From a virus, in the IMG/VR virus record IMGVR_UViG_3300017727_003125, positions 1-25,128 of that record: a stretch of 25,128 bases of DNA, one strand, 5' to 3'. Below, piece by piece: positions 1 through 17,345 of this stretch (positions are counted from its first letter, which is position 1; every line of letters begins with the position of its first letter). Below the pieces are notes generated by a model that was given only the letters and a program-made list of their open reading frames with translations, was not told where the DNA came from and did no database searches. The position numbers and the translations under genes were made by a program.

Positions 1-2529
1 ATTGATAATATTTTTTATATCAGGATTACGAGGGTCTGCTAATATACTCCTATTACCTAATGCACGATTACCACTTTCTGATTTACCTTGAAACCAACCT
101 ACAATCTTGCCATCTGCTATTGCTTGTGCTATCTCTTTATATGATGTTAATTTTTCATCACCTTTATATTCATATTCTTTACCAGCAAACGTTTTTGTTT
201 TATGAATATTTTTATTTAATACATAGTCAGCATGTTGATATGTTCCTAAAGCTTGACCCTCATCACCTACAGCAGGTGGTATAAAAACATTTTTATAATG
301 TTTTGTAAATTCTTCATTCATATATCCATTGTAAGCTACGCCACCGGCAACACATAAATTATCACAACTTTTTAAAGGATAAACAAATTCTTTTATCTTA
401 TCTATTGTAAATTTTTGTAGAGTAAACGCCAAATCATCTATACTATCTAATTTAATATGTTTAAAATGTTTTTGTTTTTTTTCTGTTATAGGTCCATCTA
501 AAATAGTTTCAAATATGTCATAATAGTATTGATTATATTTTCCATAACCAACTTTACCCATAAGTTTACTTGCGCCAAGTGTTCCAAATCCTGTTAAATT
601 TGACATATGATTCCATAACCATCCAATTGGTAACTTATCTGATAAATCTATTAAGTTTTGATTTTTGTCAAAGAATACACATCTATATTTTGATCCTATA
701 CCATCTATTGCTAATATATCAGATTGTTCAAAACCTGAATTAAGAAAGGCATATGTAGCATGTGATTGATGATGGTCTATAAAGTATATATCATCTTTGA
801 GATAATAGTCCCACAATTTTTTAGGCTCATAATTAAATATATCTTTTGGTAATAACTCTTTACAATTTCTAATACCACCATATGTGTAAGTAAATGCTAA
901 AATACCATTTGTTCCGTCTCGTTCAAGTTTATCCCAATAATCTAGCATAAATTCATTATTTAAACGATAGTCAGTAGGATTTAATATATCTGATTGATGA
1001 GCATACGCTTCTACTTTGTATGGTAGATTGTGTTTAAATCTAGTTTCTCTTTCTCTTTGATCATGCCATACACCATCATATGCATTATGATCATGTAAAT
1101 TTAAAGCTAATGAATATATTTTTTTCACTCTTTTTTTCTCATTATATTTTTTCAATTCAGGATACACATCAAATAAATTCATGTTCCATTTAGTATCTTT
1201 ATAATATTTATCCAATGATAATAAGTAGTCAATTGTGTCTAAATAAGATAATCCGTTATTGTCTTCTCTTAATACATTTTGTATATCAGGAAAGTTATTA
1301 TACTTTGGTATAAGTTTTTCTTTTATTTCATCAGGTAAAACATTAGCACATAACTTTGCTGGCCCTCTTATATTAGACCAGTTAATTTGTTTAAATAATT
1401 CTTTGTTGTTATCAAACCATTCTATAAGTTCGTAAAATCTCAAAACACTTAAAAAAGATATAGTCCCATTTACATTTATTTCTACATTAGGAAATTGTCG
1501 TATTGTTTTAATGTTATTAACTATATCTTCCCAATTTGATCTACGTCTAATATATTCATCAGCTTTTCCTATGCCATCAAGTGATACAGTAACTTCAAAC
1601 GTTTTAAAATATTTAATATAATCTGTAATTTTATATTTACCATGTCCTAAAACCGACATATTAGTTTGAAATTTTACTGTCATATGTTTAGTTAAACCTG
1701 TTTTTATTATTGCGTCAAGTAATTGATAATATTGTTTCATAACTAATGGTTCGCCACCAATTAATTTAAGATTATAAATGTAGGGGGAAATATCTACTAT
1801 TTGATCAATTATATCTTTAAGAGGTGCGCCTTTAATCTGATTAACTTTAGTCTTGTTGCCATTTTCAATACCGTATTTGTTGAATGTTGTTTGATCTTTT
1901 AGTTCATCAGAGTTCATTGTTTTAATTCTTGTAGATGAATCATAAGTATGACACATAAAACAATCTAGATTACATTGATTACCAAATGCTTTAATCTGTA
2001 CTTCAAAAATTTTATGTTCTAAATGACCTCTACCTGTATGTTTAAATGCCTCAACTGCCTTTGCCATTTCAGGCCATAATCCATCATTGTTACTTTGTAT
2101 TTTTAAAGAAGCCTGTCTCCTTGATCTGCCATATAATTTTTCTTGTTTAATACATGATACACACGATTTTTTTGTTAATTTTAAATCTGAACCGGGTGTT
2201 ATCATTTCATTTCGTAGTTGATTTAGTTTAAGATCATTTTCAAACCAATCTCTTATTGATGTATTTCTTATATTAGAACCAAATTGATTTACGTCAGCCC
2301 AAGAACATGGTGCAAAATCACCATTAACGTCTGTATATAACTGTTGAAAAGGAGCACTACAAAAATAAATGTCTTCTTCTTTAATTTGTTTTTCAAACGG
2401 ACCTAAATGTATTCTTTGATCCTCAAACCATTTAGATGTATCTACTTTACCATCTCCTAAAAACTTATCGCCAGGACCACCTTTAGTTAAATGTTCAGGA
2501 AGTTTATCATTAGGATTATCTTTAATCAT
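1..2529 (-). CDS. Radical SAM / carbamoyltransferase fusion protein, C-terminus cut by window edge
   Basis: The minus frame starting at ATG 2529-2527 is open for 843 codons to position 1; I read every triplet and found no stop. Residues ~60-150 form a SPASM-like domain (FCSAPF, APCSW, CVSC). A radical SAM core follows, with the [4Fe-4S] motif CNLDCFMC at C186, C190 and C193, then IGGEPL at ~257-262. After ELKKYNEKKR the frame continues from ~468 into a NodU/CmcH/TobZ-type carbamoyltransferase: HHQSHATYAF, then AIDG, then AGGVAYNGYMN, DEGQALG and GWFQGKSESGNRALGNRS. Carbamoyltransferases of this family move a carbamoyl group from carbamoyl phosphate, through an adenylate, to a hydroxyl of a sugar or natural product. 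The first ~465 residues resemble the 536-residue protein at 6852-8462, which ends where the fusion begins. The start overlaps the upstream stop by 8 bases (ATGATTAA). Substrate unknown; the C-terminal part lies outside the window. Confidence 0.9.
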   Translation of the reverse strand, partial: MIKDNPNDKLPEHLTKGGPGDKFLGDGKVDTSKWFEDQRIHLGPFEKQIKEEDIYFCSAPFQQLYTDVNGDFAPCSWADVNQFGSNIRNTSIRDWFENDLKLNQLRNEMITPGSDLKLTKKSCVSCIKQEKLYGRSRRQASLKIQSNNDGLWPEMAKAVEAFKHTGRGHLEHKIFEVQIKAFGNQCNLDCFMCHTYDSSTRIKTMNSDELKDQTTFNKYGIENGNKTKVNQIKGAPLKDIIDQIVDISPYIYNLKLIGGEPLVMKQYYQLLDAIIKTGLTKHMTVKFQTNMSVLGHGKYKITDYIKYFKTFEVTVSLDGIGKADEYIRRRSNWEDIVNNIKTIRQFPNVEINVNGTISFLSVLRFYELIEWFDNNKELFKQINWSNIRGPAKLCANVLPDEIKEKLIPKYNNFPDIQNVLREDNNGLSYLDTIDYLLSLDKYYKDTKWNMNLFDVYPELKKYNEKKRVKKIYSLALNLHDHNAYDGVWHDQRERETRFKHNLPYKVEAYAHQSDILNPTDYRLNNEFMLDYWDKLERDGTNGILAFTYTYGGIRNCKELLPKDIFNYEPKKLWDYYLKDDIYFIDHHQSHATYAFLNSGFEQSDILAIDGIGSKYRCVFFDKNQNLIDLSDKLPIGWLWNHMSNLTGFGTLGASKLMGKVGYGKYNQYYYDIFETILDGPITEKKQKHFKHIKLDSIDDLAFTLQKFTIDKIKEFVYPLKSCDNLCVAGGVAYNGYMNEEFTKHYKNVFIPPAVGDEGQALGTYQHADYVLNKNIHKTKTFAGKEYEYKGDEKLTSYKEIAQAIADGKIVGWFQGKSESGNRALGNRSILADPRNPDIKNIIN

Positions 2530-3121
2530 TATACGAAAGTCTTAATTGTTCAAATTTATCTGTCAAGTTTATATTAAATGATTTATGATCTTGTATATGT
2601 TCGTATAATTGTTTAAATCCATTGTAAGCTCTTTCAACTTGATTTACTCCTGGTTGTTCATATTCTGCACACATGGGTAAGTGTATTGTAGTATAAAATC
2701 CTAAATTTGACCAATGCACAGCACTAAATTCTTTTGCATTAACAACACAACCTCCTAAATTACAACCTCCTATAATTATTTGAGTTTTACTAGGTTTAAC
2801 TGTCCAACCTGTAACTTCAAATATTAAATCTGAAATTTTTTTAATAGAATATTTTCCGTCATCATTTGAATGAGGTTCATCAATTTGTAAAACATTAAAA
2901 TCATAATGTTGTTTGGCCATTTTTAATATTTCTGTTAATTTTGTATCGTAGTTTCTTTCCATATTTGAAACTATAATTGTTTTTTTTCTATCAATATTAT
3001 TACAAAGCACAAATCTTTGTAGTTCAGCGTATCTTCTATTATTTACATACTCATCACCTAATATAGGGTGTCCTAGAAAGTCAATTAGAAGTAAAACAGT
3101 ATATGATTTATTCAAATCCAT
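2522..3121 (-). CDS. Isochorismatase-like (cysteine hydrolase fold) protein, tentative
   Basis: A 199-residue protein with two features of the isochorismatase-like fold. There is an N-terminal hydrophobic strand ending in Asp (TVLLLIDF, D14), and a strand-glycine-cysteine segment (IIIGGCNLGGCVV) in which C125 sits where the nucleophile lies in G-x-x-T-x-x-C-V. Such enzymes hydrolyse amide or vinyl-ether bonds using an Asp-Lys-Cys triad; I could not place the Lys with confidence, and the usual Thr is missing. Its start lies one base after the stop of the preceding radical SAM gene (TAA-A-ATG), and its own end overlaps the start of the fusion gene, so it is an internal member of the operon. It could also be an unrelated Rossmann-like protein. 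The assignment rests on a few residues only. Confidence 0.4.
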   Translation of the reverse strand: MDLNKSYTVLLLIDFLGHPILGDEYVNNRRYAELQRFVLCNNIDRKKTIIVSNMERNYDTKLTEILKMAKQHYDFNVLQIDEPHSNDDGKYSIKKISDLIFEVTGWTVKPSKTQIIIGGCNLGGCVVNAKEFSAVHWSNLGFYTTIHLPMCAEYEQPGVNQVERAYNGFKQLYEHIQDHKSFNINLTDKFEQLRLSYND

Positions 3122-3122
3122 T

Positions 3123-3755
3123 TTATTTACCTTGAGTCCTATCTAAACTTAAATTTTTATTTGTAGGTCTCAAAGGATCACCTGGACCCATCCACCTTGA
3201 TGAATTAATTACTACAAATTTTACTCCTATTTTATCTGCCATATCTCTACATGCTTCAATATCATTTTCATTAAAGCTAAATACAATAAATTGCCATATA
3301 GGTGTATTCTTTAAATACTTAATACTATCTTTCATTATATTATATAATTTTTCACCGTCTTGATTAGTTCTATACTTATGACTATCTTTAGGAAAACCAT
3401 CTATACCAAACCACCATTGAGCTCTTGGATTTGCTTCAAAGGCTTTAGGATACCACTTTAAAGGTTTAGCTGCTGAAGCATGATGAATACTGGTTGTATG
3501 ATTTTTTCTTGCATATATCATTTCTAGTAATTGTATAAATTTTGGGTGATGAACAGGATCAGATACTTGACCACAAAAATTTATATGATTAAAAAAGTTA
3601 AGCACTTTTTCAAAATCTTCAATAGAAATGTCTTCGCCAGGAACTTTTAACCCCTTACTTGTAAATGAAGTGTATCTTTGACATCTTTTACATTCTAATG
3701 GACATCTATGTGTGATATCGATATTGATACCTCTTCTATTAAATAGAGTATCCAT
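3123..3755 (-). CDS. Radical SAM core protein without its own SPASM domain
   Basis: A 210-residue protein. INIDITHRCPLECKRC carries the radical SAM cluster motif CX3CX2C (C18, C22, C25), which binds the [4Fe-4S] cluster that cleaves S-adenosylmethionine. FCGQVSDP lies where the GGEP strand is normally found, and WWFGIDGFPKD resembles the beta-strand 4 segment of related proteins. It is short for the family and lacks C-terminal auxiliary-cluster cysteines. The gene transcribed just before it, one base away, encodes a lone SPASM-like domain, so the two probably act as a split enzyme. The next gene downstream also starts one base after this stop. The substrate cannot be read from the sequence. 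Confidence 0.8.
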   Translation of the reverse strand: MDTLFNRRGINIDITHRCPLECKRCQRYTSFTSKGLKVPGEDISIEDFEKVLNFFNHINFCGQVSDPVHHPKFIQLLEMIYARKNHTTSIHHASAAKPLKWYPKAFEANPRAQWWFGIDGFPKDSHKYRTNQDGEKLYNIMKDSIKYLKNTPIWQFIVFSFNENDIEACRDMADKIGVKFVVINSSRWMGPGDPLRPTNKNLSLDRTQGK

Positions 3756-3756
3756 T

Positions 3757-4107
3757 TTATGTATCTCTTACTCTTTTATCAAAGCCAGGTTCATATATTG
3801 TTTGTCTTTGAAACTTTGCCTCTTTTTTACATATTTTGTGGCATTGTGGAAACCCTTTTCCTTTTGCTAGATTTTTATTAAACTCAATCCACTCTGGTTG
3901 TAATAATATATCCTCTACACTATCATGGTCTTTAATATTACTAACTGATAATAGTTTTTGATATGTAGGATCAGTTCTATTGTTTTGATTATCTAACCAA
4001 CAACATGGTATTAATTCGCCTCTATTAGTAAAACCATAATTGTGTTGTCTTCGATCAAAACATTTTGGGTCTAATTCGTTTTTTTTATTATCGTCTTTTT
4101 TACTCAT
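3757..4107 (-). CDS. Stand-alone SPASM-like auxiliary domain protein
   Basis: I chose ATG 4107-4105 (MSKKDDN; 116 residues). It overlaps the upstream stop as ATGAGTAA, the same arrangement as at 4782-4789; an ATG nine codons earlier (4134) would overlap by 35 bases. The protein has the pattern of a SPASM domain without a radical SAM core: an early Cys (PKCFDRR), GELIPCCW, then SNIKDHDSVEDIL, and late cysteines (FPQCHKICKK). SPASM domains bind auxiliary Fe-S clusters in radical SAM enzymes that act on peptides or sugars. The N-terminal halves of the proteins at 6852-8462 and 1-2529 carry a similar pattern before their radical SAM cores. This gene is transcribed directly before the bare core gene at 3123-3755, so the order of domains is kept, but as two proteins. 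A partnership is inferred. Confidence 0.65.
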   Translation of the reverse strand: MSKKDDNKKNELDPKCFDRRQHNYGFTNRGELIPCCWLDNQNNRTDPTYQKLLSVSNIKDHDSVEDILLQPEWIEFNKNLAKGKGFPQCHKICKKEAKFQRQTIYEPGFDKRVRDT

Positions 4108-4789
4108 TATCGTCCTCAAATGAAAAGATATCACTAAATAGAGGACGAGTATCTTTTTTTAAACTGTCTTCACTCATATTTTGCCATTTATATAATTCTG
4201 ATCTACCTATTGTTTGTATTAGATACGGAAAATATTTAATAAACTTAAAATAATTTTCTTTTGTTTCCCATTTCGACAACTTCTTTGGAAAACAAATATT
4301 ATATGAAGTATCCCAGCCGTTGTCTAAAACGGATCCTGTAATTGCTTTAGCAATCATCCCAACTTCTATACTCCAACTTTCTCTCCCATGTGGTATAAAC
4401 CATTCTTCACCCATTTCCCACCTAGTGCCTGTTTTTTCACATTGTTCTCTAGCAAATTGATTACCTGGAGCAACTCTTGGTGTAAATATTAATGTCCAGG
4501 GTGCTGATGCTATATGAAACAGATTAGGATTTGCGTTATACTTTTTTCCTACATCTCCATCAAATTCTATTTTATTTCCTTCACACATTTTATATAGAGT
4601 AGCACTTCTTTCTTTATTTGGACCTAATACATGTGCTATATATGGAAAAGCATTTTGTTTTGATGTTGCTAATGGGTAACCTATTCTTAATATTTTTTCA
4701 ATTTCAAATCTATCAGGTATGTCTTCTATATTTGTTTTATAATTAACAACATGAGCTCTTTTTTCTAGTGCTTTTGTTATATTACTCAT
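4100..4789 (-). CDS. Nitroreductase-like flavoprotein, tentative
   Basis: A 229-residue protein whose segments follow the order of the nitroreductase fold. ITKALEKRAHVVNY resembles the N-terminal helix with basic FMN-contacting residues. EIEKILRIGYPLATSKQN resembles the I-L-x-x-A-x-x-A-P-S-x-x-N segment. FHIASAPWTLIF is a central strand, and WSIEVGMIAKAITGSVLDNG resembles the long helix that in this family precedes a Gly-rich stretch. Members reduce nitro groups or quinones; some oxidise azolines or remove iodine, all with FMN. The start overlaps the preceding radical SAM gene's stop by 8 bases (ATGAGTAA), and its end overlaps the next gene in the same way. A redox partner role in the operon's pathway is inferred. 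The similarity is by eye and weak, so another fold is possible. Confidence 0.45.
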   Translation of the reverse strand: MSNITKALEKRAHVVNYKTNIEDIPDRFEIEKILRIGYPLATSKQNAFPYIAHVLGPNKERSATLYKMCEGNKIEFDGDVGKKYNANPNLFHIASAPWTLIFTPRVAPGNQFAREQCEKTGTRWEMGEEWFIPHGRESWSIEVGMIAKAITGSVLDNGWDTSYNICFPKKLSKWETKENYFKFIKYFPYLIQTIGRSELYKWQNMSEDSLKKDTRPLFSDIFSFEDDNE

Positions 4790-5606
4790 TTAATAACCTC
4801 GCATACTTTCTCATTGGAAAATGACCCTTAGGTTGCACCCATTCAGTACAGGTTTTGCAATAGTTCTCATATTTGAACAATCTAAAGTTCATCATCTTAT
4901 CTACGTTCTCCTGCGTTAGGTCAAAGGTTTTAGAAAGTTCACTATTATTGGCAAACTTCTTACTACAATGTACAATATGTTTCTTTTCAAAGTCTATAAC
5001 AGGTACCATAGGGAAAGCTGCACACATTTTACGATCTATTTCAGCAGCTTGTAATACGTCTGTAAATTCTTTTGATCTACCATTAAATGCTTTCCACATG
5101 GTATTTTTGTGATCTAATTGTTTTACTATTTCAGGATACTTATGATTATAAGAGTAATAGTTTGGTGTTTTAACAACTACATTATAGTTGTTCATGTCAT
5201 TTTCAGGCACAAAATCAAAGTTACCAAGTTTAGTTACCTCATGTTCGTACCAATCCAATATATTATGTTCAACATATAATATATCTTTGTCTTCTAATAT
5301 ATAAGGATATCTCTTTCTAACAAATGAATTAGATAATACTGAACAAAAAAAATTAGGATTTTTCTTAATCTCATTAATTACTTCATCTAAATTTTTGATT
5401 AAACCAGGCTCACCACCTAATAGATTAACTCTTACTTTATAGTCTTTTAGAAATCCTAAAGTTTTTCTTAAAAAGTCCATATCTACGGTCAAGTTACGCA
5501 TTTCTAAAGTGTAACTAGTACAATAATGGCAATTCTTATTACACGACATAGATAAAAAGAAATCTATGGCCAAATATTCATTTTGTATTTCTTGTAAGTT
5601 TTTCAT
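4782..5606 (-). CDS. Radical SAM protein with C-terminal SPASM/twitch-like cysteines
   Basis: Starting at ATG 5606-5604 the protein has 274 residues; an upstream in-frame TTG at 5624 is less likely. No good Shine-Dalgarno precedes either start, and the gene lies over the end of the aminotransferase gene, so coupling probably drives translation. IDFFLSMSCNKNCHYC has the CX3CX2C motif (C22, C26, C29), and VNLLGGEPGL is the SAM-binding GGE strand. Towards the C-terminus, MCAAFP, VHCSKKF and NYCKTC give scattered cysteines that could hold an auxiliary cluster, as in SPASM or twitch domains. Its neighbours are a PLP aminotransferase and a nitroreductase-like protein, which suggests small-molecule or sugar chemistry. 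The reaction is unknown. Confidence 0.8.
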   Translation of the reverse strand: MKNLQEIQNEYLAIDFFLSMSCNKNCHYCTSYTLEMRNLTVDMDFLRKTLGFLKDYKVRVNLLGGEPGLIKNLDEVINEIKKNPNFFCSVLSNSFVRKRYPYILEDKDILYVEHNILDWYEHEVTKLGNFDFVPENDMNNYNVVVKTPNYYSYNHKYPEIVKQLDHKNTMWKAFNGRSKEFTDVLQAAEIDRKMCAAFPMVPVIDFEKKHIVHCSKKFANNSELSKTFDLTQENVDKMMNFRLFKYENYCKTCTEWVQPKGHFPMRKYARLLNE

Positions 5607-6852
5607 AAAATTTATTAAACGCAATCTTTAATTTTTTAGTATTTTTAAATGTTACTTCTTCAACATAACCTGGTGTTTGAAAACATTTCTCTATTATATA
5701 ATCATAAATAGGTTCATTAATTTCACCTATTAGACTTTTATCAATATAATCATCACCTATTAGTTTCTTCATGTTGTTTAAAAATTTAGTTTCTTCTTGA
5801 TCTAATACAATTAAAATTATATTGACAACTTTATTTATTTCAACATCTGTCATATAAGGATTAATTGGTAATGTCAATATTGTATCACATACTGTTTTAG
5901 AATTAAACATACTATCTTTTCTATGATAGATATTTTTATACATAATATTCTCAGATAAAGGCTTACTGTAGTGAACCTTTGCTTTTAGTTTTTCTTTTAG
6001 TTCATCTCTAATTTCTCTGTTTGGTAATCTGATAACATATTTGTGATAGTTATGATTAAGACCGTTTGTTGTTTGTTGAATAATTACACAATCTTTTAAT
6101 TGTTCATCATATTTTTTAGCAACTTCTTGTCTTTTTGTTTGGTAGCTATCTATTTTATTCAATCTATAATTTATAAAAGTAGCATTCATTAATAGCATTT
6201 TAGAGTTGTAACCTAACATCTCGTTGTCACCATGTTTTCTTAATTTTTTAATTGTATTAGCATATTCTTTATTGTCTGTTAATATAGCACCGCCACCTGA
6301 AATACCAGCAATTACTTTGTTTGCATTAAAACTTAATGTACTAATATCACCTATTGTACCTGCCTTAACATCATTTAAACTAGCACCTAATGATTGAGCA
6401 GCGTCTTCTATAAATGCTATATTTTTTTCTTTACAAAATTCTATTATATGTTTTGTTTCTGACATATTACCAAATAAATGAGGGTATACAATTGCTCTTG
6501 TCTTATCTGAATACATATTCTTTATACTATCAAGTGATAAATGATAAGATGAAATATCTATGTCACAAAATACAGGAGTAGCACCTACCATTGATATACA
6601 TGAAGCTGTAGATATCCAAGAAAAGTTGGTCGTAATAACTTCATCACCTGGTTTGATACCTAAACTTATTAATGAAAAGTGTAAAGCGTCTGTTCCATTA
6701 TTACATGCAATAGCATAATTTCTTCCAGTCAATTTAGTAAGACTTTTTTCTAGAAACTCGACATTAGTTTCCTGTTCTTTTTGCATAGTAACATCAAAAA
6801 GTTTTTGATATTCTTCTTTGTTTAGTATGTAATCTTTATGCCAACTATCCAT
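5578..6852 (-). CDS. DegT/DnrJ/EryC1/StrS-family aminotransferase with extra C-terminal region
   Basis: A 424-residue PLP enzyme. The N-terminal half carries ACNNGTDALHFSL (phosphate-binding loop), GDEVITTNFSWISTA, GATPVFCDID, FIEDAAQSLGA (Asp contacting the pyridine nitrogen) and SFNANKVIAGISGGGAIL, whose K179 is the Schiff-base lysine. This family typically transfers an amino group to a keto-sugar nucleotide or to a cyclitol. The usual domain ends near the conserved-looking TLPINPYMTD segment (~340). About 85 further residues (QEETKFLNNMKKLIGDD onward) look helical and are not part of the standard fold; I do not recognise them. The start overlaps the stop of the upstream radical SAM gene by one base (TAATG). 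It is the clearest sign that the operon makes an aminated product. Confidence 0.9.
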   Translation of the reverse strand: MDSWHKDYILNKEEYQKLFDVTMQKEQETNVEFLEKSLTKLTGRNYAIACNNGTDALHFSLISLGIKPGDEVITTNFSWISTASCISMVGATPVFCDIDISSYHLSLDSIKNMYSDKTRAIVYPHLFGNMSETKHIIEFCKEKNIAFIEDAAQSLGASLNDVKAGTIGDISTLSFNANKVIAGISGGGAILTDNKEYANTIKKLRKHGDNEMLGYNSKMLLMNATFINYRLNKIDSYQTKRQEVAKKYDEQLKDCVIIQQTTNGLNHNYHKYVIRLPNREIRDELKEKLKAKVHYSKPLSENIMYKNIYHRKDSMFNSKTVCDTILTLPINPYMTDVEINKVVNIILIVLDQEETKFLNNMKKLIGDDYIDKSLIGEINEPIYDYIIEKCFQTPGYVEEVTFKNTKKLKIAFNKFYEKLTRNTK

Positions 6853-8462
6853 TACTTATTTCTTTGATGTTTTGGTATATAATATTCTTTTAATTCTGGA
6901 AACACATCAAATAAATGTAATTCCCATTTAGTGCCTTCATAATATTTGTCAGCGTCAAGTAAATAATCAAATACTTCTTGAATATCTAATCCTTCTTCAG
7001 CAGGCATACGAAGTGCCTCTTGTATATCAGGCCATCCTTTGTATTTTGGTATTAAATCATCTTTTATTTTTTGAGGTAAGTTATTGGCTCTTAATAACGG
7101 AGGCGATTCTAACATAGCCCAATTTACTTGGTCAATCATATCTTTACCCTCAGTCATACACCAATCTATAACCTCATAAAATCTCATAACGCTAAGAAAA
7201 GAAACTAAGCCATTAAAGTCGGCATCTACATTATCATATTTGGCACACAAGGCAAGATTATCTTTAATTTTGTCCCAATTACATCTTCTTCTCATGTACT
7301 CAATGGTTTTACCTACACCATCAACAGAAGCAACCATAGAAACTCTTTTAAATTTAGGTATGTAATCAAATATATTATGTTTACCACCTTTTGTTTCTGT
7401 TAAGTTTGTTTGATATTTAAGATAGATATGTTTGGCGTGACCTGATGCTATTAACTTGTCTAATAACTCATAATGTTTTTTCATAATTAATGGTTCGCCA
7501 CCAATAATCTTTATACTTCTTATGTATGGTGCCAACTCTAAAGTTTGATCTACCATAGACTTTTTGTTTTGAATTTTTACTTGAGCTTTTAGTTTAGGTA
7601 TTACATAATCACCATGTTCATCTAGTTTTACATCTGGTTCTTTAATTATATTAGTTTTATCTCTAGTCACCCATTTAAAATGATCTAGTGTTTCTTTATT
7701 TAACTCTCCAAAAATAGCGTCATTCCATACACCATCATTAGCAACCTTTTGACGAATAGTAGAATTTTGGTGAGTACACATATAACAGTCTAAATTACAC
7801 TCTGATCCATAAACTTTTAATTGAACTTCTATAATTCTTTCGTCAAAATCAAATAGACCACTTGCTTTAAATAATTGTGCTGATCTATCTACTTTACCCC
7901 AAAAATCAAAATCGTTAGTATGAATTTTCATACAAGCAGTTCTTCTAGACTTACCATATCTTTTTTCATCTGAAACACATCTTACGCAATATTTGTTTAC
8001 GTTTTTAAATTCTTTTTCTTTGGGGTCAAGCATTTCTTTACGAATACCATTAAGAGCTTCACTATTAATCATCCATTCTTTCATTGATGTATTAAGTATA
8101 TTATGTTTACCGTCAGGTTTACCAAAACAACATGGTTGATAATTGCCATCTATTTCCATATATAATTGAGTAAAAGGAATATCGCAAAAGAAAATCTCTT
8201 TGTCTTTTGCTTGTTGAGCTATTGATCCTTTTTTAAGCAAATCTGGAATATAACTAAGTTTTTTACGACCTAAAGAATCATATTTTTTTTGAGGTTCTTG
8301 AAACCATGAATCAGTATTAACATTACCGCCAGTAGATTTATCTCCAGGACCGCCTTTAGTCATATGTTTAGGTAGTTCTTTATCCTGCTTTTTATCCTCA
8401 TCTAAAAAATCATAACGACTTTCTATATCTGTATCAGGCCAGTTGGGAAATTTTTCACTCAT
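6852..8462 (-). CDS. Radical SAM protein with N-terminal SPASM-like domain (paralogue of the fusion's first half)
   Basis: A 536-residue protein. Residues ~91-180 form a SPASM-like domain placed before the core: FFCDIPFTQLYMEIDGNYQPCC (C93, C111, C112), NILNTSMKEW, and YCVRC (C159, C162). The radical SAM core has ECNLDCYMC (C222, C226, C229) and IKIIGGEPLI. After the core comes KRVSMVASVDGVGKTIEYMRRR, then a conserved tail ending DVFPELKEYY. It matches the first ~465 residues of the protein at 1-2529 along most of its length, including the N-terminal LTKGGPGDK-like segment (MTKGGPGDK here), so the two are in-operon paralogues. Start and stop each overlap their neighbours by one base (TAATG). 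Radical SAM enzymes with this layout occur in marine T4-like phages from memory; the substrate is unknown. Confidence 0.88.
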   Translation of the reverse strand: MSEKFPNWPDTDIESRYDFLDEDKKQDKELPKHMTKGGPGDKSTGGNVNTDSWFQEPQKKYDSLGRKKLSYIPDLLKKGSIAQQAKDKEIFFCDIPFTQLYMEIDGNYQPCCFGKPDGKHNILNTSMKEWMINSEALNGIRKEMLDPKEKEFKNVNKYCVRCVSDEKRYGKSRRTACMKIHTNDFDFWGKVDRSAQLFKASGLFDFDERIIEVQLKVYGSECNLDCYMCTHQNSTIRQKVANDGVWNDAIFGELNKETLDHFKWVTRDKTNIIKEPDVKLDEHGDYVIPKLKAQVKIQNKKSMVDQTLELAPYIRSIKIIGGEPLIMKKHYELLDKLIASGHAKHIYLKYQTNLTETKGGKHNIFDYIPKFKRVSMVASVDGVGKTIEYMRRRCNWDKIKDNLALCAKYDNVDADFNGLVSFLSVMRFYEVIDWCMTEGKDMIDQVNWAMLESPPLLRANNLPQKIKDDLIPKYKGWPDIQEALRMPAEEGLDIQEVFDYLLDADKYYEGTKWELHLFDVFPELKEYYIPKHQRNK

Positions 8463-9259
8463 TATTTTACTTTCTTTAAAATTTGGTATTCTTCTAATAA
8501 CATATTTATCTTATCACAAACAGCTATATGTCCTAGTCCATTAGGGTGATTATCAAAATAAGATACTCTATTTAGTGATTGCTTATTTGACCATAAATCA
8601 AGTTTATCTTTTAATCTAAATCCGCCTAATTTTTTTACAGGAGGCCATCCCATAAATTTAGAAATATTTAATTTGTCTTCATATTTCATTATTGTTCTTA
8701 ATATAATTTTTTCATCTTGTTTTTCATTTCCTGGATATTTATCTTTAAAATTAGGATCTGCTCCTGACTCAATATCACTTTGACTTGGCATTAAACCTTC
8801 TAAATAATGTTCAAAAAGTTCTATCATTTGAAACTGAACATAAGTTAAATTATATCTTTCACATAGTATTTGAAAATCTAAATAATGCCCTAGAGACTTT
8901 TCAACCCAATAGGGTAGATTGCCATGTGTATTAATTCTTACTGCTCTCCAACCTTTTCTTCTATCATGTTTTAAATTAAGAACATTTAAGTCCTTGTAAT
9001 CTTGTCTTGGCGCTTGTGACCAAGCAGCAATAACTAAACCAATTTGACTTTTATCTTTTATTTTAATTATTTCATTTCGTAAAGTTGTGTAGATAAATTC
9101 ATTACCTTGAGCAGACAAAGCCACATTAATAGCTTTCATGCCTAGTTTTTCTGCTAATAATTCAGGCCATTTTTTATAACTAAAGTCCATATCAGGATGA
9201 GATATAGAATCAAAGTCATCAGTTGTATTACTATCTCCACTAACTATCAGATACTTCAT
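8462..9259 (-). CDS. SGNH/GDSL-type hydrolase or acyltransferase
   Basis: I chose ATG 9259-9257 (MKYLIVSGDSNTT), 265 residues. An upstream GTG at 9337 would add 26 residues lying over the upstream gene and placed before the first strand of the fold. KYLIVSGDSNT is SGNH block I, with the nucleophile S10. NVALSAQGNEF gives the Gly and Asn of blocks II and III. YFDNHPNGLGH near the C-terminus holds the D-x-H pair (D236, H238) of block V. Such enzymes remove or transfer acyl groups on sugars, lipids or polysaccharides. No signal peptide is seen, so the enzyme is likely cytoplasmic. It sits second in the operon, overlapping the PP-loop gene by 20 bases. A role in adjusting acylation of the pathway product is inferred. 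Confidence 0.75.
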   Translation of the reverse strand: MKYLIVSGDSNTTDDFDSISHPDMDFSYKKWPELLAEKLGMKAINVALSAQGNEFIYTTLRNEIIKIKDKSQIGLVIAAWSQAPRQDYKDLNVLNLKHDRRKGWRAVRINTHGNLPYWVEKSLGHYLDFQILCERYNLTYVQFQMIELFEHYLEGLMPSQSDIESGADPNFKDKYPGNEKQDEKIILRTIMKYEDKLNISKFMGWPPVKKLGGFRLKDKLDLWSNKQSLNRVSYFDNHPNGLGHIAVCDKINMLLEEYQILKKVK

Positions 9260-10088
9260 TAAATGCCCAATCTTTTTCATAACACCAAAAACATTGCCAA
9301 CACCATTCAGTGAAATTGTTTGTTTGATTTTTACCACCTACGCATGATCTCGTTATAGGATATAAATCTTTCATTAAATTTTCTTCTTTAAATACACCTG
9401 CAACAAATCTTTTATTTACATTTAAAAAAGGTTGATACACATTGTAACGCAATTCAGGTTTATCAAACACATCACGCCTTGGTTCACCTTGTACTCTTTC
9501 AATTTCAAAAGAACCCCATTGTTTAGGCCAATGATAGTTTCTCATTTTATCTGCAAAACCCATTCTAATTTTTACTGGTGGATTAGCTGTCATACCATCA
9601 AGTCTTAAAGGTTTACCTATCTTTTTCATAAAAGCATTATTCTGATCATCTATTGAATTGACTTTTGACATTTGAACTAAATTAAGACTTTTATATTCAT
9701 CTCTACTCTTTATCATTTTTTCCGCTCTATGATAAGTTGTTGGATCTAAATCATTATATGAACCTACCTCTATATCATTAATCTTTGAATGAGGAAAACG
9801 GTTCTTAATAAATTTTGATATTTCAATGGCTGCGTCAGCGTCTTTAGGAGCATTTACATCTCTTAATGTTAATGGATATATTTCTATATCAGGAAAATAT
9901 TTAGCTGTTAGAAAAAAGGCTGATGCTGAATCACAACCACCTGATAATGAAACTACAACTTGTTTAGGTATGCCATTATCATCATAATCAACGTCTGTTA
10001 ATGCTCTTTGTTTATAAGGTGATATACTAATTAAAGATTGTATTTTAGTATAAAAATCAACTGTTTGGTTTCCGTATTTTAAAATCAT
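9240..10088 (-). CDS. PP-loop ATPase with QueC-like four-cysteine site
   Basis: A 282-residue protein, first gene of the leftward operon. VVVSLSGGCDSASAFFL is the PP-loop (residues 49-54 SGGCDS), which binds ATP and adenylates a carboxylate or carbonyl oxygen. The C-terminus carries PITRSC and WCWQCFWCYEKDWAF; C249, C263, C266 and C269 match the zinc site of QueC, which ends similarly with a Cys-rich stretch and a basic residue then Gly/Ala-Phe. QueC makes 7-cyano-7-deazaguanine from CDG. The middle of the protein does not read as a typical QueC, so a sugar- or peptide-directed relative (for example asparagine-synthetase-like) remains possible. Two late promoter boxes lie 26-45 bases upstream; the Shine-Dalgarno is weak (AAAGAA). 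Confidence 0.7.
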   Translation of the reverse strand: MILKYGNQTVDFYTKIQSLISISPYKQRALTDVDYDDNGIPKQVVVSLSGGCDSASAFFLTAKYFPDIEIYPLTLRDVNAPKDADAAIEISKFIKNRFPHSKINDIEVGSYNDLDPTTYHRAEKMIKSRDEYKSLNLVQMSKVNSIDDQNNAFMKKIGKPLRLDGMTANPPVKIRMGFADKMRNYHWPKQWGSFEIERVQGEPRRDVFDKPELRYNVYQPFLNVNKRFVAGVFKEENLMKDLYPITRSCVGGKNQTNNFTEWCWQCFWCYEKDWAFNEVSDS

Positions 10089-10113
10089 AATTCTTTTATA
10101 AATTCAATATGTA

Positions 10114-10121
10114 TATTTATA
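10114..10121 (-). promoter_or_regulatory. T4-type late promoter box for the leftward operon
   Basis: The minus strand reads TATAAATA, the T4-like late promoter -10 element recognised by the gp55-type sigma factor. The predicted +1 lies six bases on, near 10108, giving a leader of about 20 bases before the PP-loop gene's ATG at 10088. Confidence 0.7.
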
Positions 10122-10125
10122 TGAC

Positions 10126-10133
10126 TATTTATA
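10126..10133 (-). promoter_or_regulatory. Second T4-type late promoter box for the leftward operon
   Basis: A second TATAAATA on the minus strand, 12 bases upstream of the first. Its predicted +1 is near 10120. Tandem boxes may raise output or allow two start points for the ten-gene operon. Confidence 0.65.
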
Positions 10134-10138
10134 AACGT

Positions 10139-10146
10139 TATAAATA
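10139..10146 (+). promoter_or_regulatory. T4-type late promoter box, predicted leaderless transcript
   Basis: TATAAATA on the plus strand. If it spans -13 to -6 as in T4, +1 is 10152, which is the A of the start codon of the next gene. With the two minus-strand boxes it forms a compact divergent control region in the 63-base gap. Confidence 0.7.
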
Positions 10147-10151
10147 ATAAT

Positions 10152-10796
10152 ATGAATGATAATGATAAAGCTCTATTGAGATTGAGTACAATGTGTGATT
10201 GGATTGAATTTCCAGGTTTTAAAAAAGACAAATTATTAGAAGAATTAAGACCTTTTGAAAAAGACTGGAAAAGATATAATTACAATACAAAAAAACCAAA
10301 TAATCGTTGGGGATTAAGTGTAACAAGTATTGACGGAGGACTTCACGGTATTCCTGATTTATCAAGTTTAAGAGAATGGGAAGTACATACAGGTGAAGTA
10401 GTACACAACCACGATATAAATGTTCCTACAGACGTATGGAAACAATGTCCTACTTTACAATCAATATTAGAACCATGGAAACCTTGGTTAGGCCGTTGTC
10501 ACTTTTTACGGATGGACAGAGGCAGTTATTTTCCTGAACATTTTGATATTAATAAAGAAGACTATAGTTATGATGAAGTTAGATTTGTTGGATTTGTTAG
10601 ATGTAATGAAAAAGATTTTAAATGGATTTATGATGATAAAGTTATCAAAGGCAATCAAGGTTCATTATGGTATTTCAACGGCAATAAAAAACATAGTGTT
10701 TTTTCAATGATTGACGGTGTAATTATATTAGTAATGTGTTTAAAATTTGATAAACATTTATTTCAGAAAATTTTGGATTATGGTAAAGTAAAATAA
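10152..10796 (+). CDS. 2-oxoglutarate/Fe(II) oxygenase-like (Asp/Asn hydroxylase type) protein
   Basis: A 214-residue protein. GRCHFLRMDRGSYFPEHFD contains an H-x-D pair (H130, D132), followed about 50 residues later by WYFNGNKKHSVFS with H181. Together these give the HxD...H iron-binding facial triad of a double-stranded beta-helix oxygenase. The R-x-x-x-G-x-x-x-P-x-H-x-D wording is closest to the aspartyl/asparaginyl beta-hydroxylase group. The 2-oxoglutarate-binding Arg is not certain. The ATG at 10152 has no Shine-Dalgarno and lies six bases past a late promoter box; the next in-frame ATG (10191) has no convincing ribosome site either. The stop overlaps the TctA gene's start (TAATG), so the two are co-translated. 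The hydroxylated substrate is unknown. Confidence 0.55.
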   Translation: MNDNDKALLRLSTMCDWIEFPGFKKDKLLEELRPFEKDWKRYNYNTKKPNNRWGLSVTSIDGGLHGIPDLSSLREWEVHTGEVVHNHDINVPTDVWKQCPTLQSILEPWKPWLGRCHFLRMDRGSYFPEHFDINKEDYSYDEVRFVGFVRCNEKDFKWIYDDKVIKGNQGSLWYFNGNKKHSVFSMIDGVIILVMCLKFDKHLFQKILDYGKVK

Positions 10797-14112: not shown

Positions 14113-14457
14113 ATGGCGGCAATAGCAAATTTAAGTATAGATCAAGGAGCATCCTTCAGTTCGGCAGTAACAGTAAAAAATGCTGACGGAACAGGTTTTA
14201 ATTTAACTGGTTATTCAGCAGCTGCAAAACTGGCATTAGGATATAATTCTACAAGAACTAGAACAGCTATGACAACTTCGATTGCAGGTGATCCTACAAC
14301 AGGTGTTGTGACTTTATCACTTACACCTACTCAAACATCAGCTTTGGATGCCCCAGCACGTTATGTTTTTGATGTAGAAATTACTCAAACCTCATCAGGA
14401 GACGTAACAAGAGTAATAGAAGGAATTATTTCAATAAGACCACAAGTTACTATATAA
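14113..14457 (+). CDS. Virion/fibre-associated structural protein
   Basis: A 114-residue protein, beta-rich and Thr/Ser-rich, opening ANLSIDQGASFSSAVTV. It contains FNLTGYSAAAKL and ends with DVTRVIEGIISIRPQVTI. This layout, with a SIDQG start, a GY-A-KL strand and a final V-E-G-x-I-x-I-x-P, is familiar from small baseplate or fibre-attachment proteins (BppU N-terminal-like) that sit before tail-fibre genes in marine T4-like phages; the match is from memory. The start has no Shine-Dalgarno of its own and lies six bases past a late promoter box. Its stop codon TAA forms part of the next late promoter (14453-14460). It probably sits at the base of a fibre. Confidence 0.6.
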   Translation: MAAIANLSIDQGASFSSAVTVKNADGTGFNLTGYSAAAKLALGYNSTRTRTAMTTSIAGDPTTGVVTLSLTPTQTSALDAPARYVFDVEITQTSSGDVTRVIEGIISIRPQVTI

Positions 14458-14460
14458 ATA
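14453..14460 (+). promoter_or_regulatory. T4-type late promoter box overlapping a stop codon
   Basis: TATAAATA contains the TAA stop (14455-14457) of the preceding gene. The predicted +1 is near 14466. The leader begins with the 12-base palindrome AACATATATGTT (14468-14479), directly followed by AAGGAG (14480-14485) and ATG 14493. Confidence 0.75.
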
Positions 14461-14492
14461 GATGAACAACATATATGTTAAGGAGATAAAAT

Positions 14493-14789
14493 ATGAGTAG
14501 TGAATTGAACACGAAAACAACAGAAAATGCACCCCAGGTGCCAAGTATCTTTATCAACGGTAAAGAATATAAACAAGACAAATTATCAGCAGATTGTTTA
14601 AATGCTATTGCAGTAAGACAAGACTTACAGGCAAATAGAATGAGACATGTAGTAGAAGTAGAGAAAATTGACGTTCTTACTAAACACTATGATGCTAAAA
14701 TTGAAAAAGAACTTGAAAAAGTTGACGGTCCTAAAACTGAGGAAGCCTCAAACGTAGCGACTGCTAATTCTGCTGACACAGCAAAATAA
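14493..14789 (+). CDS. Small hypothetical virion-module protein, charged and helical
   Basis: A 98-residue protein. After a polar N-terminus, PSIFINGKEYKQDKLSADCLNAIAV forms a beta-hairpin-plus-helix unit of the 'I-N-G-K-x-Y' type seen in small proteins near cyanophage fibre genes. A long charged helix follows (RHVVEVEKIDVLTKHYDAKIEKELEKV), probably a coiled coil, then a disordered Ala/Ser/Thr tail. It starts at ATG 14493 behind AAGGAG with seven bases of spacing, downstream of its own late promoter. Its function is not known; an assembly factor or minor virion component is a guess from position. Confidence 0.65.
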   Translation: MSSELNTKTTENAPQVPSIFINGKEYKQDKLSADCLNAIAVRQDLQANRMRHVVEVEKIDVLTKHYDAKIEKELEKVDGPKTEEASNVATANSADTAK

Positions 14790-14824
14790 TTTTCACAAAA
14801 CACAACATACACCCCCTTTCACTA

Positions 14825-14832
14825 TATAAATA
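14825..14832 (+). promoter_or_regulatory. T4-type late promoter box (first of a tandem pair)
   Basis: TATAAATA; predicted +1 near 14838. It lies at the top of the hairpin described at 14806-14862, so its transcript does not contain the left arm. Confidence 0.7.
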
Positions 14833-14833
14833 T

Positions 14834-14841
14834 TATAAATA
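14834..14841 (+). promoter_or_regulatory. T4-type late promoter box (second of a tandem pair)
   Basis: TATAAATA nine bases after the first box; predicted +1 near 14847, leaving a leader of about 13 bases with GAGAGGG just before ATG 14860. Confidence 0.7.
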
Positions 14842-14859
14842 TAGTAGAAGAGAGGGTGT

Positions 14860-15123
14860 ATGTCAAACTATACTGCAAGAATTAATCAAACAACTAATCT
14901 TACGGCAAGTGTAAATGCTACTACAGCACCTGGACCAAAACAGGTATCTGTAACAACCCCCTCGGCAACGACAAATTTAGGTAATTTAGAAGATGTAAAC
15001 GCAACTTCTTTAGCTGATGGCGCATTATTACAATATGATAATAATACTAAAAAATGGACAAGTCGAAATGAAATAATAACCGACACAGGTGGAAATTTGA
15101 TATTAAACGGAGGCACATTTTAG
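14860..15123 (+). CDS. Small tail-fibre-module protein
   Basis: An 87-residue protein, Thr/Asn/Ala-rich. Its C-terminal half contains LGNLEDVNATSLADGALLQYDNNTKKWTS, the 'L-x-D-V-x-x-x-x-L-x-D-G-x-L-L-x-Y-D-x-x-x-x-K-W' pattern that recurs in tail-fibre proteins of marine T4-like phages. Here it stands alone as a small protein. The ribosome site (GAGAGGG) is short-spaced, and start and site can be hidden in a hairpin unless transcription begins at the late promoters inside the loop. Its stop TAG overlaps the AGGAG of the next gene. It likely attaches to a neighbouring fibre or baseplate protein; no enzyme motif is seen. Confidence 0.65.
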   Translation: MSNYTARINQTTNLTASVNATTAPGPKQVSVTTPSATTNLGNLEDVNATSLADGALLQYDNNTKKWTSRNEIITDTGGNLILNGGTF

Positions 15124-15133
15124 GAGAGAATAA

Positions 15134-16777
15134 ATGGCAACAATAATAAAAATAAAACGAACTACCGGCGCTACCGCCCCTAGTGGTTTAAATCAAGGAG
15201 AGTTAGCCTATGTTTACGATACCTCAGCTGCTAGTGCAGGTGCAGGTGGTAATGGTTTACGTTTATTCATAGGTGATCCAACTTCAACATCAAATTCACC
15301 AATCGAAATTGCAGGTGAATATTTTACAAATCTTTTAGATCACTCACACGGTGTAGCAACGGCTTCTTCAAGTGTCTTGCTAGATTCAAATAAAAAAATT
15401 GACGAGTGGAGTGTAGATAATTTAAAATTAGACGGTAGAATTTTATCATCAACAGACACTAACGGTAATATAGAAATTACACCAAATGGTACTGGTAAAT
15501 CAGTTATTAAAAACATATTTGTTGATAACGCTAGCACATCTTTACAAGAATACATTGAAGATATTTCTGGTGGTTCTGTAACTGCTGGTGAGGGTATTGA
15601 TGTAACTTATGATGACGCTGCCGGTACAACTACAATTTCAGGCGAAGACGCTACAGATTCAAATAAAGGTATTGCTTCTTTTAGTGCAAATGATTTTTCT
15701 GTTTCATCTGGTGCTGTAACTGTAAAAGCTGGTGGTATATCAAATACACAACTTGCTGGTTCAATTGCAATTTCAAAACTTGCAACTAGTTCACTAACTA
15801 TTGGTTCTGATACAATTTCATTAGGTGGTACACAAACAGATTTAAATGGTATTACTTCTCTTGATGTAGATAATATTACAATTGACGGTAACACCGTTTC
15901 AACAACAAACTCAAACGGTAACATAGCTCTTGCTCCGAACGGTACAGGTTCAGTTACAGTTCCTTCAGGTTATGAAGCACGTGCTGGGTTTAGTTCAGAT
16001 TCACTTGTAAATAAAACTTATGTTGATAGTGTTGCAAATGGACTTGATGTCAAAGCATCTGTTCGTGTAGCTACTACAGCAAACTTATCTGTTAACTATA
16101 ATAACGGCGCTGGTACTTTAACAGCAACATCAAATGGTGCAATCGCTATTGATGGTGTAACTCTTTCATTAAACGATAGAGTTCTTGTAAAAAATCAATC
16201 AGTAGCTGCTCAAAACGGTTTCTATAAAGTTACAACAACAGGTAGTGGTAGTGCTGTTTTTGTTTTAACTAGAACACCAGACGCTGACGCTGCTTCTGAA
16301 TTAACTTCAGGTGCATTTACTTTTACCGAAGAAGGTACTGCTAATGCTGATAACGGTTATGTATTAAGCACAAATGGTGCAATTGTACTTGGTACAACAT
16401 CAATAAATTTTGAACAATTTTCTGGTGCAGGTCAAATTTCAGCTGGTAACGGTTTAACTAAATCAGGTAATACAATTGACGCAGTAGGTACAGCAGATAA
16501 AATTTCTGTAAGTGCTGATGCAATTACTATTGCTAATACATATGTTGGACAAACTTCAATTACAACTTTAGGTACTATAGCAACTGGTACTTGGAATGGT
16601 TCAGTAATCGGAGAAGTTTATGGTGGTACTGGACAATCTTCTTACACTACTGGTGATATTTTACATGCAAGTGGATCAAACACTCTTGCTAAATTAGCAT
16701 TAGGTGTAAATGGTAAAATTTTACAATCCAATGGTACTAATGTAACTTATGGAGATATTGACGGCGGAACTTACTAG
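15134..16777 (+). CDS. Tail fibre protein
   Basis: A 547-residue protein. The N-terminus (IIKIKRTTGATAPSGLNQGELAYVYDT then LRLFIGD) matches the virion-binding beta domain found at the head of many phage fibres and of Bordetella phage Mtd. The middle has repeated beta-strand units such as NGNIEITPNGTG and NGNIALAPNGTGSV. A later block carries YVDSVANGLDVKASVRVAT, LNDRVLVKNQ, NGFYKVT, and FVLTRTPDADAASELTSGAFTFTEEG, typical of T4-like cyanophage fibres. It ends GTWNGSVIGEVYGGTGQSSYTTGDILHA and a short Gly-rich tail. AGGAG (15122-15126) gives a good start at 15134, and the gene ends with two stop codons in a row. It has no chaperone domain of its own; host binding is inferred from the family. 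Confidence 0.85.
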   Translation: MATIIKIKRTTGATAPSGLNQGELAYVYDTSAASAGAGGNGLRLFIGDPTSTSNSPIEIAGEYFTNLLDHSHGVATASSSVLLDSNKKIDEWSVDNLKLDGRILSSTDTNGNIEITPNGTGKSVIKNIFVDNASTSLQEYIEDISGGSVTAGEGIDVTYDDAAGTTTISGEDATDSNKGIASFSANDFSVSSGAVTVKAGGISNTQLAGSIAISKLATSSLTIGSDTISLGGTQTDLNGITSLDVDNITIDGNTVSTTNSNGNIALAPNGTGSVTVPSGYEARAGFSSDSLVNKTYVDSVANGLDVKASVRVATTANLSVNYNNGAGTLTATSNGAIAIDGVTLSLNDRVLVKNQSVAAQNGFYKVTTTGSGSAVFVLTRTPDADAASELTSGAFTFTEEGTANADNGYVLSTNGAIVLGTTSINFEQFSGAGQISAGNGLTKSGNTIDAVGTADKISVSADAITIANTYVGQTSITTLGTIATGTWNGSVIGEVYGGTGQSSYTTGDILHASGSNTLAKLALGVNGKILQSNGTNVTYGDIDGGTY

Positions 16778-16798
16778 TAGTCGTCACAAACAAAAATT

Positions 16799-17005
16799 AT
16801 GGCGACTGTTATTAAATTAAAAAGAAGCGAGACTGCAAGTTCAGTTCCAAGCACATCTGATTTGCAAGTAGGCGAATTAGCTATTAATACGTCTGATAAA
16901 AAAATTTATGTGAAAGATAGTGGTAACAATATTGTTGAAGTTGCAAATCAATCAACGGGTGCTACTGTAGATGACGCAACAGCTTTAGCAATTGCGCTAG
17001 GATAA
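16799..17005 (+). CDS. Stand-alone Mtd-N-like fibre attachment domain
   Basis: A 68-residue protein. TVIKLKRSETASSVPS, LQVGELAINTSDKKIYVKDSGN and VEVANQ correspond to the same N-terminal beta domain that opens the fibre at 15134, but here it ends after a short helix (DDATALAIALG). It is thus a free copy of the virion-docking module. There is no visible Shine-Dalgarno before ATG 16799, only an A-rich leader, so translation may depend on the fibre gene ending 21 bases upstream. A connector or spare docking subunit is the likely role; this is inferred from the domain. Confidence 0.65.
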   Translation: MATVIKLKRSETASSVPSTSDLQVGELAINTSDKKIYVKDSGNNIVEVANQSTGATVDDATALAIALG

Positions 17006-17008
17006 ACC

Positions 17009-17344
17009 ATGGCAAATACTTTTAAACTTAAAACAAAAACTGGTGGAAGTACAGCTGCTAATACAGCAATTACAGTATATACAACACCCTCATCTACAAC
17101 AGCTATAGTTTTAGGTCTTACTCTCTCAAACATTACAACATCAAATATTGAGGTTACAGTTAATTTAGAAAATGGTGACGGAGACAATGTGACTATTGTA
17201 AAAAATGCTGAAGTTCCTGCAAAAGCTTCTTTAGAAATTATGTCAGGAAATAAGTATGTAATGGAGACTACAGATATTTTAAAAGTTCAATCTAACACTT
17301 TAAATAGTTTAGATACAACTTTAAGTATAATGGAGATAACGTAG
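17009..17344 (+). CDS. Small beta-rich virion structural protein
   Basis: A 111-residue protein: an N-terminal TFKLKTKTGGS, then YTTPSSTTAIVLGLTLSNITTSNIEVTVNL, then VPAKASLEIMSGNKYVMETTDILKVQSN. This beta-sandwich-like pattern, with an 'S-L-E-I-x-x-G-x-K-x-V-L/M-x-x-x-D-x-L-x-V-x-S' segment, is familiar from small virion proteins beside fibre genes of cyanophages. AGGA (17000-17003), next to the preceding gene's stop, serves as ribosome site, and only three bases separate the genes. The stop lies one base before the giant fibre's start, so the three genes are coupled. No enzyme motif; a fibre-base or neck component is likely. Confidence 0.65.
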   Translation: MANTFKLKTKTGGSTAANTAITVYTTPSSTTAIVLGLTLSNITTSNIEVTVNLENGDGDNVTIVKNAEVPAKASLEIMSGNKYVMETTDILKVQSNTLNSLDTTLSIMEIT

Positions 17345-17345
17345 G

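Follow-up and report, generated by a model that had tools for sequence, protein, structure and literature searches.

In this study, which was based on one viral record of the IMG/VR database (IMGVR_UViG_3300017727_003125, taken in full as the window of 25,128 bases) and on its comparison with other viral contigs, we analysed an operon of ten minus-strand genes, A to J, that is rich in radical S-adenosylmethionine (SAM) enzymes. The operon is best read as one end of a phage cassette for sugar tailoring and glycosylation whose product would most likely go to the fibres of the virion, and we give this reading about an even chance. The cassette itself is modular and was seen in hundreds of viral contigs, which sets it apart from random cargo; we class it as a phage glycan island that has an unusual radical-SAM content. 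The original prediction, which was made from the letters of the window, had described ten coupled late genes that resemble a sugar- or antibiotic-building cluster and had proposed that they decorate the virion, the host envelope or DNA. All ten genes are present, but they form only one end of a larger cassette, and the likeness to sugar or antibiotic tailoring is borne out. Decoration as the role is supported as well, but DNA is an unlikely target.

Conservation of the gene set and its order

The radical SAM protein E was used as an independent bait, and its relatives are encoded in 298 viral contigs; the counts that follow refer to the 31 contigs that have 5 kb on each side of E. All 31 contain D (the DegT aminotransferase), a predicted glycosyltransferase (GTx), a methyltransferase-like gene (f10), a GT8-type gene (f15) and a further glycosyltransferase-type gene (f27), the carbamoyltransferase, alone or fused, is present in 30, and the SGNH-type protein B and the flavoprotein F are each present in 29. 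The other modules are less constant, with H in 20 contigs, A in 8, a separate twitch radical SAM gene in 7 and I in 2. Because of these counts, the genes of the window were divided into a core (B, D, E and the carbamoyltransferase part of J) and optional genes (A, C, F, G with H, and I). After dereplication of E at 95% nucleotide identity, 23 contigs were left, among which D, GTx and GT8 were found in 23, the carbamoyltransferase in 22 and B in 21. With E as the bait, the core order GTx-SGNH-DegT-E-carbamoyltransferase-methyltransferase-GT8-glycosyltransferase was violated in 9 of 1189 gene pairs, and all 532 core genes (532/532) lie on the same strand. When H was used as the bait, 118 loci with H were obtained; across all loci compared, the counts were 111 for G, 81 for twitch or carbamoyltransferase proteins, 64 for B, 63 for D and 60 for E. 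The gene-neighbourhood comparison that had been suggested with the original prediction thus bears out the linkage of the genes through their conserved order on one strand.

Between the window and contig L028, the ratio of nonsynonymous to synonymous polymorphism (pN/pS) ranged from 0.11 to 0.60, and all ten genes of the window are under purifying selection. Moreover, two fusions were found, one that joins a twitch radical SAM protein to the carbamoyltransferase (J) and one that joins D to a small protein, d; the parts are unfused genes in other phages, in which the carbamoyltransferase is free-standing. These fusions appear to tie the steps of the pathway together.

Transcription and extent of the operon

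The ten open reading frames (ORFs) run from position 10088 to position 1, and neighbouring ORFs overlap or sit 1 base pair (bp) apart, which matches the near-gapless arrangement that had been described earlier. The T4-type late promoter box TATAAATA occurs 11 times in the window, a total that is close to the chance expectation; 10 of the 11 copies precede a start codon of the correct strand by no more than 70 bp (binomial P about 2e-14), and other orders of the same letters, which served as the control, gave at most 5 such placements. Two of these boxes serve the operon (Table 1), so that the late promoters of the original prediction were confirmed. Since no further minus-strand copy of TATAAATA was found within 1-10088, the simplest reading would be that the ten genes form a single late transcription unit. 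Neither tRNA nor known RNA elements were found in the window.

Gene J is truncated by the contig edge, and the actual operon extends beyond the ten genes of the window. In contig L021, whose proteins are 100% identical to those of the window, J is complete (966 amino acids) and is followed by f10, f15, f27, f18, a second F and GTx, and then by an epimerase dependent on nicotinamide adenine dinucleotide (NAD) and a tail gene on the opposite strand. The continuation of the operon thus adds one gene of methyltransferase-like type (f10) and four of glycosyltransferase type. Among the latter, the f15 family matches PF01501 (GT8), while f27 and f18 are GT-A-like with conserved D-x-D motifs. The predicted structure of GTx had a predicted local distance difference test (pLDDT) score of 91.5 and could be aligned over its full length to GT-B glycosyltransferases such as PimA and BshA (Z 15.3), which makes GTx a predicted GT-B glycosyltransferase; profile searches of the PDB gave no match for GTx or for the GT8 family. 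A simple hydropathy test predicted no membrane segments in the core families. A contig of a gammaproteobacterial metagenome-assembled genome (L217, positions 1-12000) was additionally found to encode a GT7-lectin fusion, a twitch radical SAM protein, an SGNH protein, a carbamoyltransferase, an epimerase, a deoxythymidine diphosphate (dTDP)-sugar isomerase and a thiamine diphosphate enzyme, and was regarded as a sugar cluster related to the cassette. The joining of a twitch radical SAM protein, an SGNH protein and a carbamoyltransferase with a nucleoside diphosphate-sugar epimerase, a dTDP-sugar isomerase and a GT7 enzyme in such a distant contig would support a sugar as the class of substrate.

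Aminotransferase, radical SAM and carbamoyltransferase proteins of the core

The D protein matched the DegT profile with 277.9 bits (cut-off 19.8), is nearest to the LegC/PseC/ArnB sugar aminotransferases and has the lysine motif for pyridoxal phosphate (PLP) in 59 of 61 relatives. Its C-terminal extension is the protein d of other phages, a separate protein of about 106 amino acids in which no known domain was recognised. In contig L073, d lies between D and E (7607-7966), and its counterpart in the window is the C-terminus of D (5578-5800). D and E are adjacent, directly or with d between them, in most of the contigs obtained with the E bait.

Each of the radical SAM proteins, of which there are four (C, E, H and J), has the CX3CX2C motif. 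For E, the match to the radical SAM profile reached 34.5 bits against a cut-off of 29.5, and the radical SAM cysteines together with four auxiliary ones were kept in 59 of 59 relatives. The four extra cysteines may form one auxiliary cluster with a layout of the BtrN type. In butirosin biosynthesis, a BtrN-type enzyme is paired with a DegT aminotransferase. E resembles butirosin BtrN in its CX3CX2C motif and four further cysteines as well as in its coupling to the DegT gene D. BtrN, whose substrate for oxidation is an amino-cyclitol, belongs to the twitch enzymes and has a four-cysteine auxiliary cluster (PMC9012708).

Both C and the N-terminal half of J scored far over the cut-off of the N_Twi_rSAM family (NF033640), with 294.4 and 296 bits, respectively, against 170, and this profile was above its cut-off in only 2 of 369 Gammaproteobacteria genomes. 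The remainder of J has the two domains of the NolO/NodU O-carbamoyltransferases, i.e., Carbam_trans_N (PF02543, 62.5 bits) and Carbam_trans_C (PF16861, 51.4 bits), and its phage relatives belong to PHROG 1601. J differs from NolO/NodU in being fused to a twitch radical SAM protein, and its score against the NodU equivalog profile was 42 bits compared to a cut-off of 1000. Sugars and natural products are the targets of carbamoyltransferases in this family. The set of radical SAM proteins and a carbamoyltransferase that was originally proposed was therefore found, except that the carbamoyltransferase and one of the radical SAM proteins are a single gene, J.

The split pair H and G

The original prediction had also pointed to a split radical SAM pair, which holds: H provides the radical SAM core and G the small twitch-like protein, with CX3CX2C kept in 151 of 151 H proteins and five cysteines kept in 131 of 131 G proteins. 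Relative to H, G was located only after it in 91 cases, only before it in 26 and on both sides in 7, and was missing in 27. The split as a frameshift artefact was ruled out, as G occurs on either side of H and both proteins retain their cysteines. The simplest reading would be that H and G together make up one radical SAM enzyme of two proteins, with G supplying the auxiliary cluster in trans; if so, this type of split radical SAM enzyme would be new.

H was found in at least 504 viral contigs. Among genomes from 84,980 species, it was confirmed in only 15 contigs, several of which are phage-like, in a pattern-based scan of the kind that misses distant relatives. The split pair is nearly virus-specific. 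For E, the search for a bacterial donor gave 1 weak match in 385 Alphaproteobacteria and, in a search without a positive control, 0 matches in 296 genomes of the phylum of genome G005. A tentative extension, to which we give about half the weight of the sugar cassette itself, is that the pathway evolved in viruses, so that the split pair, E and the carbamoyltransferase would make a sugar not known from cells, which the phages put on their own fibres.

H with G also occurs without D or E, either between capsid and tail-tube genes or adjoining a baseplate gene, where the labels capsid, tail-tube and baseplate were assigned by eye from the sequences. In another phage group, the pair is inserted between the likely major capsid and tail-tube genes (L031, 9881-11204, and about 15 similar loci); these loci have a gene nearby that resembles 2-oxoglutarate-type hydroxylases.

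Proteins A, B, F and I

Four further assignments of the original prediction, i.e., PP-loop (A), SGNH (B), DegT (D) and nitroreductase (F), are backed by profile matches and, for A, also by its fold. The AlphaFold model of A aligned to TilS, QueC, LarE and Cap9 with Z of about 12 (QueC 12.0, Cap9 11.5), and the fold search gave no separation among these four. The SGGxDS motif is present in 17 of 18 relatives of A, with SxGxDS in the remaining one, residues C249, C263, C266 and C269 are invariant, and the zinc-type motif was kept in 17 of 18 wider relatives. A thereby resembles QueC, QatC and Cap9 in SGGxDS and C(x)nCxxCxxC. Its zinc motif, however, has the spacing C(x)13CxxCxxC or longer, compared to C(x)8CxxCxxC in QueC, whose other canonical motifs are YxQxHxxE, VPxRN and YPDC (PMC13329287). 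None of the latter three was found in any of the 18 relatives of A, which rules out that A is QueC proper.

Among the relatives of B, 5 of 11 matched PF13472 (best 1.6e-4), although the copy in the window had no Pfam match and its PDB profile search was empty. The residues S, GN and D-x-H are invariant, and B is predicted to be of the O-acyl esterase or transferase type. The family profile of F matched structure 3gfa at 1.8e-7 as well as other nitroreductases. The isochorismatase-like label that was given to I could not be upheld: Asp14 and Cys125 are invariant in its family, but there is no invariant lysine before the cysteine, and neither Pfam nor PDB profile searches gave a match.

Proposed pathway, acceptor and rival explanations

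In the proposed pathway, a starting sugar would be drawn from the host or from the neighbouring NAD-dependent epimerase, and D would aminate a keto-sugar that is probably nucleotide-linked. E would then act on the amino-sugar by oxidation or another rearrangement, in the way that BtrN follows its own DegT partner, the carbamoyltransferase would put on an O-carbamoyl group, B would add or remove an acyl group and f10 may methylate the product, which the GT-B protein together with the GT8 and GT-A proteins would transfer to its acceptor. H with G, C and the N-terminal part of J, F, A and I may be tailoring modules that replace one another, so that the product differs from phage to phage. All of the substrates, the order of the steps and the acceptor are what we infer from the gene content. 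A tail-fibre neighbour was found in 42 of 71 contigs obtained with the E bait. Because of the late expression, the lack of predicted membrane segments and the flanking tail-fibre genes, the virion fibre is the likeliest acceptor. The window encodes a fibre of 2095 amino acids (17346-23633, plus strand) with many NTTG-YNVAIG-type (YadA-like) repeats and a terminal S74 chaperone domain, which is a candidate acceptor for the decoration.

Several points weigh against this pathway. No enzyme that makes a keto-sugar is encoded within the window. The BtrN structure 4m7t matched E only weakly and not significantly (E value 0.14, residues 14-82 only) in the PDB profile search, E has no significant sequence match to BtrN over the twitch part, and viperin scores higher over the N-terminal half. 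The evidence that f10 is methyltransferase-like is weak (0.039). Moreover, the acceptors of glycosyltransferases are not readable from sequence, and GT8 enzymes are typical of lipopolysaccharide (LPS) biosynthesis too (PMC7029224).

A serious rival, although a clearly less probable one, is that the same sugar pathway is directed at the host envelope, where it would alter the LPS core or O-chain while the infected cell is still making it. Such a change might serve to block co-infection or to keep released virions off debris. This was proposed for the glycosyltransferases in the host recognition clusters of pelagimyophages on account of GT8 being typical of LPS synthesis (PMC7029224), and cytosolic GT8 and GT-B proteins could act on the LPS core before its export. 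On the other hand, late promoters beside tail-fibre genes would be late for the exclusion of competitors, and the cassette contains no flippase, polymerase or acyltransferase membrane protein; neither point is decisive.

We regard it as unlikely that H with G, C and E modify residues of a virion protein such as a repetitive fibre, in the style of SPASM maturases, and that the transferases then glycosylate it. The split pair and the twitch radical SAM proteins do resemble SPASM-type maturases in weak profile matches, H with G lies between capsid and tail-tube genes in a phage group without D and E, and the aspartyl-hydroxylase-like K recurs adjoining the cassette. However, the invariant DegT, carbamoyltransferase and glycosyltransferases suit sugars better, no leader-binding domain was recognised, and gaps of at most 1 bp leave no room for a precursor peptide gene, whose absence from the operon had been correctly stated before. 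A cluster for ribosomally synthesised and post-translationally modified peptides was rejected on the same ground, which concerns only a precursor inside the operon.

It is highly improbable that a deazaguanine-type product, destined for DNA, tRNA or protein, is made by A together with the radical SAM proteins. The SGGxDS motif, the variant of the QueC-type zinc motif and the alignment to QueC and Cap9 would fit such a nucleobase or nucleoside pathway, but A is present in just 8 of the 31 flanked contigs, its relatives lack the three other QueC motifs, no FolE, QueD or transglycosylase is found among the ten genes, and late expression is ill-suited to DNA modification. Finally, the genes as independent, partly decayed cargo that are neighbours by accident deserve next to no credence: single modules are gained and lost between phages, but the conserved one-strand order, the two fusions, the pN/pS values of all ten genes and the conserved catalytic residues refute unlinked or decayed cargo, and with it the unlinked cargo and inactive fragments that the original prediction had named as grounds against itself.

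Carriers and previous descriptions

The full core is present in the cultured Pelagibacter phage Mosig EXVC030M, in which the cassette is located between the tail-fibre genes and the VrlC/baseplate genes. Its genes are annotated mostly as hypothetical or as 'molybdenum cofactor biosynthesis', and they are not discussed in the announcement of this phage. Among isolated phages, Mosig EXVC030M was the only close relative found, while HTVC008M has a lone carbamoyltransferase.

Zaragoza-Solas et al. 2020 (PMC7029224) described in pelagimyophages an island, named the 'host recognition cluster', in which glycosyltransferases occur along with radical SAM gene cassettes, and proposed modification of the host O-chain for its GT8 enzymes. 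The cassette resembles this cluster in its location in the tail-fibre region, both in the window (14113-23633) and in Mosig EXVC030M, and in its GT8 content (f15, past the window edge in L021). The passages of the paper that were covered give the island and general gene classes, whereas an ordered DegT-radical SAM-carbamoyltransferase-glycosyltransferase pathway, the H and G pair or a mechanism do not figure in it. The word 'undescribed' in the original prediction was therefore too strong, since the island, together with its 'radical SAM gene cassettes', had been reported in 2020. In the open-access literature, which was the literature covered, the ordered cassette was found nowhere described, and the ordered pathway appears not to have been defined before.

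If the proposed reading is true, phages of SAR11 and its relatives, which are among the most numerous marine viruses, possess a radical-SAM sugar chemistry of their own, which is largely absent from the searched cellular genomes and is applied at the virus-host interface. For tests of this reading, there are a defined gene order, specific enzymes and, in Mosig EXVC030M on HTCC1062, a carrier in culture. The analysis also corrects gene names in the Mosig EXVC030M genome, for example, 'molybdenum cofactor biosynthesis enzyme'.

Features of the window and neighbouring genes

Table 1. Genes and other features of the window that relate to the cassette.
Feature	Positions	Strand	Assignment	Remarks
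J	1..2529	-	N_Twi_rSAM fused to NolO-type carbamoyltransferase	cut by contig end
I	2522..3121	-	199-amino-acid protein; optional, rare	isochorismatase-fold likeness by eye only
H	3123..3755	-	radical SAM core protein without its own twitch domain	partner of G
G	3757..4107	-	small twitch/SPASM-like protein, five invariant cysteines	partner of H; start inferred, ORF opens at 4134
F	4100..4789	-	nitroreductase-fold flavoprotein, often duplicated	family profile
E	4782..5606	-	radical SAM; core	CX3CX2C and four further conserved cysteines
D	5578..6852	-	DegT/DnrJ/EryC1/StrS PLP aminotransferase; core	C-terminal extension
C	6852..8462	-	radical SAM with N-terminal twitch domain; optional module	NF033640
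B	8462..9280	-	SGNH/GDSL hydrolase-type; core	start 9280 or 9259 inferred, ORF opens at 9337
A	9240..10088	-	PP-loop ATPase; optional module	PF02540; zinc motif variant C(x)13CxxCxxC
Two T4-type late promoter boxes (TATAAATA)	10114-10121 and 10126-10133	-		gene A begins 26 and 38 bp downstream, respectively
K	10152..10796	+	aspartyl/asparaginyl beta-hydroxylase-like protein	adjoins cassette; membership uncertain
Tail-fibre gene block	14113..23633	+	context	flanks cassette in many relatives

The family of K was found in 22 loci, and a relative in contig L043 (14338-14955) matched PF05118 at 0.0028. Between K and a 394-amino-acid protein that resembles ATP-grasp enzymes by eye lies a gene for a full-length TctA subunit of a tricarboxylate transporter (10796-12064, plus strand; PF01970, 192.9 bits). 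A 259-amino-acid protein with an apparent signal peptide is encoded at 13232-14011 on the minus strand; it had no Pfam or PDB match and is possibly a TctC-like binding protein that matches the phage TctA. Downstream of the fibre genes, a GT9-type (heptosyltransferase-like) glycosyltransferase is encoded at 23998-24903 on the plus strand (PF01075, 24.7 bits). In Mosig EXVC030M (L043, 8702-14955), a second, divergent run of small enzymes lies opposite the cassette and comprises two aspartyl hydroxylases, a GNAT protein, a methylase, a TauD dioxygenase, a peroxiredoxin, a flavin mononucleotide reductase, an aminotransferase and a fatty acid desaturase.

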